Source: a virus. Taken from it: a stretch of 22,241 nt of DNA. Below the pieces are notes generated by a model. That model was not told the DNA's origin and did not search any database. It was given only the letters and a program-made list of their open reading frames with translations. The DNA is taken from positions 1-22,241 of the IMG/VR virus record IMGVR_UViG_3300031507_000028; one strand, 5' to 3'. The position numbers and the translations under genes were made by a program. This document shows positions 3,624-21,457 of the stretch, piece after piece. The stretch's first letter is position 1, and every line of letters starts with the position of its first letter.

Positions 3624-3818
3624 ATGCCCGCCCGCTATCTGCCTCCGGTGAAGGTCAAGACGCTGGAGATCCCCTACAAGGTTCTCGTGCTGCGCAACGA
3701 CCAGGATTTCGAGACGGCCAAGCGTAAGGAACCGTTCTACGAGTTTTCCCGCGGTCGCCGCTTCAATGAAGACACCGCCCGCCAGGGGCCGTATTCCACG
3801 GTACCCAACATCCGCTGA
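3624..3818 (+). CDS. Hypothetical protein, 64 aa
   Basis: A short basic protein just after the large terminase. The start ATG 3624 follows GGAG at 3612-3615, which overlaps the preceding stop codon. It holds a beta-like first half (VKTLEIPYKVLVLRND) and a charged second half rich in Arg and Lys. I recognise no family and no catalytic motif. Small proteins between terminase and portal are frequent in podovirus-like genomes, so a packaging or head accessory role is possible but unproven. Confidence 0.6.
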   Translation: MPARYLPPVKVKTLEIPYKVLVLRNDQDFETAKRKEPFYEFSRGRRFNEDTARQGPYSTVPNIR

Positions 3819-3832
3819 TAGGAGCCTGCCCA

Positions 3833-4297
3833 ATGGACTTCAAGCCTTTCGACGCGCCGCCGTCCGACTACCACTCTCTCAATTCCGGCCTGAGCACCGA
3901 GGGCGGCGTGACCGCCAAGGGTTTGATCGAGGGACTGAACGCCTATCTGGCGCACCTGTTCGCGGCGGTCGAGGGCAAAGCCGCGCCGATGATCAAGGCG
4001 GCGAAGCAGGACATCAAGTCCGTCGAGCCCGACCTGGTCGCCCTGTTCGCCGCCCACTCGGATCGGATCAGCGCCATCGAGCATGGGTTGGCCGAGATGA
4101 AGCAGATGCTTGATGCGTTCTTCGACGCTGCTCAGAGCATGCATCAAGCATCTCTTACGCCTGCGACGCCGCCCGCCGAGAGCTCTGACCCGGTCCCGCC
4201 CCATCCCGACCAGCCGGCCGACGTGCAGACCAAGGAAGCCGATCCGGCGCCGCACAACGCCCTCGCCGATATCCTTGCGGGGATATCAGGGCGATGA
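3833..4297 (+). CDS. Hypothetical helical protein, 154 aa
   Basis: The start ATG 3833 has TAGGAG at 3818-3823, nine bases upstream. Residues about 25-105 are predicted helical, with regularly spaced hydrophobics (GLIEGLNAYLAHLF, then AEMKQMLDAFFDAA), so a coiled coil or small helical bundle is likely. Residues 108-145 are Pro/Asp-rich and look disordered, before a short C-terminal helix (NALADILAGI). It overlaps the next gene by 4 nt (ATGA). The layout, helical body plus disordered tail, is common in small head-assembly proteins, but I cannot name the family. Confidence 0.62.
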   Translation: MDFKPFDAPPSDYHSLNSGLSTEGGVTAKGLIEGLNAYLAHLFAAVEGKAAPMIKAAKQDIKSVEPDLVALFAAHSDRISAIEHGLAEMKQMLDAFFDAAQSMHQASLTPATPPAESSDPVPPHPDQPADVQTKEADPAPHNALADILAGISGR

Positions 4298-19616: not shown

Positions 19617-19858
19617 GAAAGCTTTACGGACGGCCTTTCCCCGGGATTCCGCCGGCCATCGCCGCGATGTTCGTTGAGATCGTAACGGCTAGCCAGGACG
19701 GAGACATCATCGATATCGGAGCTGCCTACACCATCACCGGATCGTTCACACCGACAAGGAATCTCAATGTCACGTCGCCGACGGCCGCGAACATCGCCGC
19801 AGTTCTCGCAACCCTCATCTCCGACCTTAAAGCCGGTGGAGCAACCAAAACCACTTGA
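19613..19858 (+). CDS. Hypothetical protein, 81 aa
   Basis: The start ATG 19613 overlaps the nozzle stop by 4 nt (ATGA). The protein begins with basic and Pro-rich RKLYGRPFPGIPPAI, followed by beta-like stretches (MFVEIVTASQDGDIIDIGAAY) and a helix (NIAAVLATLISDLKAGGAT). I recognise no family. The last 92 nt overlap in another frame with the N-terminal part of the following gene. If that gene starts later, the overlap is only 23 nt. It may be a virion component, given its coupling to the nozzle. Confidence 0.6.
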   Translation: MRKLYGRPFPGIPPAIAAMFVEIVTASQDGDIIDIGAAYTITGSFTPTRNLNVTSPTAANIAAVLATLISDLKAGGATKTT

Positions 19859-20297
19859 AGTCGATATTCCGGACTTCACCGTCAAGTTTGCCGAGACCGA
19901 ACAGGACATGGTTGCCATCCATCGCTTCCTGCTTTGGGTGGCAAAGCCGGCGATGCAATGTCCCGTCAACGGAATCAAGAGCCTGGAAGAAGTGATCCGC
20001 GTCGTCCGCGACGAGGTCGCGATCATGGTCATGATCGGCGATGCGCTGGTCGGAACGATGGGCATCATCAACCCGGTTTGGTGGTACGGCGACGAGGGCT
20101 TTCTGACCGACCGCTGGCATTTCGTCCTGCCACAGTACGATGGCACGGCGATCTCGCAGGCGCTGTTGGACGAGGCCGTCAAGATCGCCAATGGCGCGGG
20201 CGTGAGATTCTATCACCAGGGCCGGCCGCGCCTCGCAAAAAACGGTGTCTATTATATGTGGCCCCGGATTTACGGCGGTGGATCAGATAAGACTTGA
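19767..20297 (+). CDS. GNAT-like acetyltransferase domain protein
   Basis: A 176-aa protein. Residues from about 33 to 170 fit a GNAT fold: a strand, a helix (TEQDMVAIHRFLLWVA), a beta arm (VAIMVMIGDALVGTMGII, 84-101), a mid segment with WHFVLPQYDGTAISQALLDE (117-136) and a helix-strand end (KIANGAGVRFY). It could acetylate a host or phage protein or small molecule; the acceptor is unknown. Phages carry similar proteins near tail genes. ATG 19767 has AAGGA at 19756-19760, six bases upstream, but the first 32 residues are basic and low-complexity and lie in the overlap with the previous gene. GTG 19836 would start next to the domain but lacks a good ribosome site. The acetyl-CoA pyrophosphate loop is not clear, so activity may be lost. 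Confidence 0.66.
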   Translation: MSRRRRPRTSPQFSQPSSPTLKPVEQPKPLEVDIPDFTVKFAETEQDMVAIHRFLLWVAKPAMQCPVNGIKSLEEVIRVVRDEVAIMVMIGDALVGTMGIINPVWWYGDEGFLTDRWHFVLPQYDGTAISQALLDEAVKIANGAGVRFYHQGRPRLAKNGVYYMWPRIYGGGSDKT

Positions 20298-20303
20298 TTT
20301 GAC

Positions 20304-20309
20304 AGGAGG
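20304..20309 (+). promoter_or_regulatory. Perfect Shine-Dalgarno site AGGAGG
   Basis: AGGAGG sits seven bases after the stop of the acetyltransferase gene and five bases before an ATC codon at 20315. No ATG, GTG or TTG is in frame close behind it. It decides the start of the S74-domain gene. Confidence 0.8.
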
Positions 20310-20314
20310 CTGCC

Positions 20315-21457
20315 ATCTGCTTCGGCTCACAGACAACCGACACAAAAACCACGACGCCGACGGCGAACCCGGCTGTCGCGAATGCTGCGACCAGCAACCT
20401 CGACTTCGTCAAGAACCTGCAGGACAAAGGATTCACGCCCTATAGCGGCCAGCAGGTTGCCAACTTTTCACCGCAGCAGCAGGCATCCTTTGGCCTGACG
20501 GACGCGATTGCCGGCAATGGCACGGCGCCGCAGGCGACGTCGCTGATCAACCAGTATTCGAATGCGCCGGCCCAGAACGTCCAGGCCGACACGATCAGCA
20601 ACAATATGTCGCCCTACATGAACCAGTACGTCGAACGGGCGCTGGCTCCGCAGTTGCGACAGATGGATATCTCGAACGCGGCAACCAACAACGCCACGAA
20701 TGCCCAGGCGACGGGATCAGGCGCCTTCGGCGATGCCAGGACCGGGATCGAGCAATCCAACAACGCCTTCAATCAGAACGTCCAGCGCGAGGGCGTGATC
20801 GGCAATGCCTATAATCAGGCGTTCAACACCGCAATCGGCGCCGGCGCGCAGGACGTGTCGAATAAACTCTCCGCGGCGAACGCCAACGCTGGCTACAATG
20901 AAAGCGCGCTGGCGCGAGCGCTCGGCGGTTCCAGCGCGCTCCAAGGTCTCCAGAATCAGCAACTCGGCGTGGCTCAGGCCCAGAACACGATGGGCCAGCA
21001 GCAGACCGCCAAGAGCCAGGCCGACCTCACGGCGCAGTACAATCAGTGGCTAATGGCGCAGCAGTATCCGTTCCAGACCGCGCAGCTGATGAACGCGACT
21101 ACGGGCACGGCGGCTGGCGCAATGCCGGCGAGTTCTACGACGACCGAAGAGAAGCCGGATAATTCAGGATTGGCGCTTCTTGGAACAGCGCTTGGGACGG
21201 CCACGAAATTCATCCCATCGGATCAGCGCCTCAAGGAAGATATCGATGAGGTTGGCAGCCTCCGCGATGGCACCCCTGTGTTCTCCTATCGCTACAAGGC
21301 CGATCCGTTCAAGCGTAAACAGATCGGGTTGATGGCGCAGGATGTGATGAAGCGGCGCCCCGACGCAATTCTAACTCTTGATGATCCCGGGGGAACGATG
21401 TTGGTCGATTATCAGGCCGCGACCGAAAATTCGCGGCTTCTTTCAATCGCCATTTAA
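20315..21457 (+). CDS. Tail-associated protein with S74-type C-terminal chaperone domain, ATC start
   Basis: A 380-aa protein if read from ATC 20315, which lies five bases after a perfect AGGAGG. The N-terminal part begins CFGSQTTDTK and continues NPAVANAATSNLDFVKNLQD and GFTPYSGQQVANFSPQQQA, a beginning I know from a common phage family of unknown role. The middle (120-270) is Ala/Gln/Asn-rich and helical. The C-terminus holds SDQRLKEDIDEVG (302-314) and KQIGLMAQDVMKRRPDAI (335-352), typical of an S74 intramolecular chaperone. Ser302 and Lys307 have the spacing of the autocleavage dyad. The domain is short, about 78 residues. The first in-frame ATG is 20606, which would drop 97 conserved-looking residues. 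It is probably a tail or DNA-ejection component. Confidence 0.75.
   Translation: MCFGSQTTDTKTTTPTANPAVANAATSNLDFVKNLQDKGFTPYSGQQVANFSPQQQASFGLTDAIAGNGTAPQATSLINQYSNAPAQNVQADTISNNMSPYMNQYVERALAPQLRQMDISNAATNNATNAQATGSGAFGDARTGIEQSNNAFNQNVQREGVIGNAYNQAFNTAIGAGAQDVSNKLSAANANAGYNESALARALGGSSALQGLQNQQLGVAQAQNTMGQQQTAKSQADLTAQYNQWLMAQQYPFQTAQLMNATTGTAAGAMPASSTTTEEKPDNSGLALLGTALGTATKFIPSDQRLKEDIDEVGSLRDGTPVFSYRYKADPFKRKQIGLMAQDVMKRRPDAILTLDDPGGTMLVDYQAATENSRLLSIAI

Follow-up and report, generated by a model that had tools for sequence, protein, structure and literature searches.

Initiation at AUC and AUU codons is known in a handful of cellular genes. The gene infC starts at ATT in Escherichia coli and at ATC in Streptomyces (PMC5472188), a single ATC start has been detected by N-terminomics in E. 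coli (PMC13245402), and GFP production from ATC is measurable in the same organism, with ATC placed in two efficiency classes in the text of that study (PMC6925171). In S. aureus, AUU and AUA starts with extended Shine-Dalgarno sequences reach about 10-30% of the level of AUG (PMC13009471). Free-standing homing endonuclease genes are described in phages, among them the Endo VII-motif family of F-CphI (PMC6083498) and the mob and seg genes of T4 (PMC2988022).

The window discussed here is the whole stretch of DNA that was analysed, a virus record of 22,241 bases (IMGVR_UViG_3300031507_000028) that carries, besides the gene under study, a terminase-like gene, an SU10-type portal, a transglycosylase and structural genes. 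All features of the locus lie on the plus strand. An upstream gene of 176 aa (19767..20297), whose homologues are found directly upstream of the ejection gene in relatives, ends at the stop codon TGA 20295-20297; its homologue in the sister phage L026 has a weak GNAT-type acetyltransferase resemblance below the cut-off (Pfam GNAT, E 0.03). A further TGA at 20300..20302 closes the frame of a 380-codon ORF on its 5' side; it excludes starts before 20303 and makes frameshift entry from the upstream gene into the ejection frame impossible. There follow the AGGAGG Shine-Dalgarno sequence (20304..20309), the 5-nt spacer CTGCC (20310-20314) and ATC (20315..20317), the putative start codon. All relatives have ATG or TTG at the aligned codon, which in two of them, L026 and L033, coincides with the 3' boundary of an Endo VII insert. 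Codons 2-4, Cys-Phe-Gly (20318..20326), are invariant in a 14-sequence alignment, and the more distant L044 has Cys-Leu-Gly. The frame ends at TAA 21455-21457, and its earliest in-frame ATG, GTG or TTG, according to both the ORF list and the sequence, is the ATG at 20606..20608 (Met98), which lies inside the conserved motif NNMSPYMNQYV. The positions that the sequence-only reading had given for the stop, AGGAGG, ATC, the open frame and ATG 20606 were all exact.

Translated from 20315 to 21457, the gene yields a virion protein of 380 aa that belongs to the DNA ejection protein family. Its profile matches are to phrog_4287 ('DNA ejection protein', E 3.7e-27), across residues 6-370 and so nearly the full length, and to phrog_6121 (E 4.7e-15). 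While the likeness to the phrog_4287 family thus extends along nearly the whole protein, the window protein is unlike the family in its C-terminal Peptidase_S74 (chaperone of endosialidase) domain (residues 302-351, 21218..21367; PF13884, E 9.7e-9), which is missing in many close relatives. The domain is present in the window protein and in some relatives and missing in others with a common N-terminal 280 residues (L001-L007 versus L008-L018), a pattern that is best read as domain swapping in an ejection-type protein. In three relatives (L011 at 2890, L014 at 2839 and L016 at 2884), 20-50 extra Ser/Thr/Asn/Gly-rich residues stand between the MCFG start and the TANPAV motif. Structure prediction gave low confidence (pLDDT 36), and a search of cellular genomes yielded no relatives.

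Relatives were collected from IMG/VR as 20 and then 40 loci, with a few more added by further searches. In every relative with a readable N-terminus (about 28 distinct ones) the gene starts at the codon opposite ATC 20315 in the alignment; this codon is ATG in 26 and TTG in two (L026 and L033), and the codon after it is Cys2, almost always within MCFG (MCLG in L044). None of these homologues starts at the position of 20606, and the uniform use of the aligned codon puts the start position beyond chance. That translation begins at 20315 rather than 20606 had been proposed by the sequence-only reading, which named the starts of homologues as a check, and the comparison bears the proposal out. Selection can be assessed as well: between the window and its sister L026, residues 2-97 have a dN/dS of 0.14 and residues 98-280 one of 0.16, and the replacement:silent counts on the window branch in residues 2-97 are 9:12 and 8:16 with two outgroups, which indicates no relaxation; a third outgroup, L025, gives 20:14, and this ratio may reflect a short foreign-like tract in L026. 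Judged by these comparisons, purifying selection acts on residues 2-97 just as it does on the rest of the protein. Because of the homologue starts together with the selection on residues 2-97, it is nearly certain that the ejection protein has its true N-terminus at 20315. Translation from ATG 20606 would use the first canonical in-frame start codon and yield a 283-aa protein, but this ATG has no Shine-Dalgarno sequence (score +0.3 kcal/mol), it serves no homologue as a start, Met98 is an internal invariant residue, and the 97 codons upstream of it are under purifying selection; such a start has next to no probability. Other in-frame near-cognate codons before 20606 were considered and rejected, none having a leader stronger than -4.9 kcal/mol.

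The AGGAGG hexamer itself is not rare in the window, where it occurs 9 times against 9.3 expected from shuffles. The ATC leader, at -10.3 kcal/mol, is nevertheless a strong one: a match of this strength is seen at only 0.7% of the window positions sampled, and it is the fourth strongest among the relatives. The leaders of the three non-ATG members are stronger than those of the ATG members, in a comparison of small size (Mann-Whitney p 0.017, n=3 versus 25), and RNA structure around the ATC start is ordinary. Given that the upstream and ejection genes are only 1-20 nt apart in most relatives, coupling of ATC initiation to termination at TGA 20295-20297 is plausible.

The two relatives with a TTG start have a much wider gap between the upstream and ejection genes, of 571 nt in L026 and 560 nt in L033 versus at most 20 nt in most others. 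The gap holds an ORF, 182 or 176 aa long, that encodes an Endo VII domain (PF02945; E 2.7e-26 and 1.1e-23) and the conserved sequence VDHDH..G.VRGLLC..CN; the insertion point is precisely the ejection gene's start codon (L026 3450-3998; L033 3468-3998). The insert is an optional gene between two conserved genes, which we regard as an Endo VII-type, homing-like gene, and the window has the empty site. In the interrupted arrangement, a Shine-Dalgarno sequence (AAGGAG or GGGGAGG) lies within the last endonuclease codons and is followed by the TTG start; L033 has the same layout as L026, and its leader is similar to the one in L035, a relative with an empty site. Over the 45 bases before GCC (-45..-1), the window leader shares 41 of 45 positions with the 5' flank of the L026 insert and 9 of 45 with the 3' flank; the sequence before the insert in L026 is thus a window-type leader, so that the endonuclease gene uses the leader that serves the ejection gene in the window. 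In codons 2-17 the L026 ejection gene shares 85% identity with L025 and 65% with the window, and in codons 18-33 it shares 67% and 90%, respectively. That L026 acquired a short foreign tract along with the Endo VII insert is only suggestive, as identity also varies elsewhere in the gene, and it gives at most an indirect hint that the endonuclease gene may be copied into insert-less alleles. A different insertion, of 214 nt, is found between the upstream and ejection genes of L036 and L038 (approximately 3787-4000), where ATG is kept and a possible small ORF starts MAKLTSSDRNKIASKNFAG.

A search with the L026 endonuclease returned, among many matches, T7-like phages in which an Endo VII gene separates genes 13 and 14. 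Gene 14 of these phages encodes an internal virion protein (PF24072) that likewise begins Met-Cys. The window gene pair showed no detectable homology to gp13/gp14 of T7; hhalign gives a probability of 0.04% between the alignment of the window gene and that of the T7 gp14 family, and a Pfam scan has no PF24072 match. The resemblance is therefore one of position and not of common descent. Where the insert is present, gene 14 starts with ATG in EcoDS1, TH20, RN5i1 and KN1-1, with GTG in 101136BS1 and PDP351P4, and with ATT in ZCEC02, PSK1, Esher2, HC13, U8, CY1, pO91 and ZG49, as well as in KM02, which has a shortened endonuclease ORF. Without the insert, 9 of 10 records have ATG, the exception being PRF-SP5 with GTG. 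The conserved ATT start (ICEPISIG...) is found in nine Kayfunavirus isolates (L103 at 701, L108 at 674, L113 at 801, L114 at 802, L115 at 801, L116 at 771, L117 at 774, L118 at 763 and L119 at 597), with an in-frame stop 6 nt upstream. These isolates differ from each other at up to 26 of 290 positions, and yet all have ATT, with codons 2-11 differing mostly silently, so ATT is very probably the real start of gene 14 in them. The GenBank annotation of gene 14 in the ATT records inspected starts several codons too far downstream. In 101136BS1 (L097), the start is GTG 1856 by homology and the annotated one is ATG 1910; in KM02 (L119, 411-593), the Endo VII ORF is reduced to an annotated CDS of 183 bp, and gene 14 has kept its ATT.

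When starts are counted by lineage, non-ATG codons occur in 4 of 7 lineages with the insert versus 2 of 32 without it (Fisher p 0.0055), a post hoc comparison of lineages that are not fully independent. Endo VII-type insertions are associated with loss of ATG (TTG, GTG and ATT starts) in two unrelated phage groups, and the conserved ATT starts in T7-like gene 14 imply that rare AUH starts on such phage genes are real. In Salmonella phage PRF-SP5 (L106, 672-702), gene 14 has no Endo VII gene, a GTG start and a hybrid leader, ctaaggaggtgaaccGTG; this leader resembles empty-site sequence joined to sequence from the end of an insert, as if an insert had been lost by recombination between two Shine-Dalgarno sequences.

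The question of whether the ATC in the window is genuine has several possible answers. The reading that we consider somewhat better than even is that the ejection gene starts at a genuine, weak AUC codon, aided by the strong AGGAGG; here we infer that the true base sequence is ATC, that the codon is read as Met and that the protein is made at a low level. ATC at this codon is known from one assembled contig and from no relative in the family, so it has to be weighed whether the true codon is ATG and one base, at 20317, was changed from G to C in sequencing or assembly; we consider this possible, though less likely. ATC is one substitution away from ATG, and ATG stands in 26 of the 28 distinct relatives. 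The gene, however, has no other deviation from invariant columns: residue 1 is the sole (nearly) invariant column of the ejection-protein alignment in which the window deviates, so errors do not seem to be widespread in the gene, and the neighbouring ORFs are intact. An error would not depend on leader strength, yet the window leader is unusually strong, and two errors would be required if the true codon were TTG as in L026, whose position as the sister phage has tree support of 100/96 and whose TTG start is itself weak. Pattern searches of IMG/VR for further copies gave no match to a second copy of the window leader with any third base in the start codon, and a looser leader pattern matched L026 only, in a collection that may lack the records nearest to the window. 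Of the claims of the sequence-only reading, the start position is strongly supported, and ATC as a real start in preference to a sequencing error is probable, with a single assembled contig behind it. That relatives carry an Endo VII-type insert at this site was not visible to that reading.

A third possibility is that ATC is real but a recent, near-null mutation in a minority variant, the gene being poorly expressed or silent. ATC is unique to the window contig, and AUC initiation is weak in E. coli measurements, but the reading frame is without decay and under similar purifying selection throughout, evidence that a very recent change would escape; we regard this as quite improbable. That ATC was left by the precise loss of an Endo VII insert is not favoured, since the window leader agrees with the sequence on the 5' side of the L026 insert (41/45) but not with that on its 3' side (9/45); the L026 insert seemingly arriving with a short foreign tract also speaks against such a scar, and the window is more readily seen as the original empty site than as a site that lost an insert. 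It is important to bear in mind what stands against a genuine ATC: underproducing a virion protein might be harmful, the codon is one base change from the commonest ancestral codon just as an error would be, and the test of Shine-Dalgarno strength has three weak-start members only. Leader strength, the weak TTG start in the sister phage and the real rare starts in comparable phage genes together tilt the balance towards a genuine ATC.

If AUC is indeed the start, the strong Shine-Dalgarno sequence (AGGAGG, 5 nt away) would place the 30S subunit at the codon, and ribosomes terminating 17 nt upstream would probably help to deliver it. The initiator tRNA would read the near-cognate AUC at lowered efficiency, and the product would be a low-level protein beginning fMet-Cys-Phe-Gly, with the strong Shine-Dalgarno sequence and the termination 17 nt upstream holding output at an adequate level. 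A bolder proposal, which we consider unlikely, is that Endo VII-type homing genes target the start codons of ejection-protein genes in unrelated short-tailed phages. The start-codon changes, ATC at the empty site and ATT, GTG or TTG where an insert is present or has left a scar, would then result from this conflict as resistance alleles or rebuilt starts, and they would be tolerated since the gene stays active behind a strong Shine-Dalgarno sequence. That ATC alters the site of an Endo VII-type enzyme, and so protects the phage from insertion, is a speculative guess.

An AUC start is, on this evidence, probable in a phage virion gene, beyond the handful of cellular genes, and an AUU start is conserved in gene 14 of sequenced, cultured T7-like phages that are mis-annotated in public records. 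The association with an Endo VII-type gene placed precisely at the start codon points to a simple way in which mobile endonucleases could rewrite translation starts. The wider pattern, that is, Endo VII genes at ejection-gene starts and a conserved AUU in cultured phages, is a more valuable result than the ATC in the window alone.

Compared with the known systems, the window resembles the AUU, AUC and AUA starts of the infC/pcnB type in having a near-cognate AUH codon behind a strong Shine-Dalgarno sequence that annotation programs miss. The N-terminus lies at a non-canonical codon, as judged from about 28 distinct relatives; no canonical in-frame start is within reach, given TGA 20300 and an ATG 20606 without Shine-Dalgarno sequence; and AGGAGG at 5 nt (-10.3 kcal/mol) is strong. 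Codon conservation was not found, the relatives having ATG or TTG and the window alone ATC. Whereas the infC/pcnB-type genes function in translation or RNA processing, the window gene encodes a phage virion protein, and its ATC is without known regulatory feedback. The L026 and L033 inserts are like free-standing homing endonucleases in being an optional Endo VII-motif gene (PF02945) between conserved genes, and differ from them in sitting exactly at a start codon, which in the window is without insert. In the Endo VII-bearing gene 14 of Kayfunavirus, the start is ATT, kept in nine isolates with the insert or a remnant of it present, whereas the window has ATC and no insert; the two have in common an ejection-type virion gene, an M/I-Cys N-terminus, an AUH start and an Endo VII insertion site.
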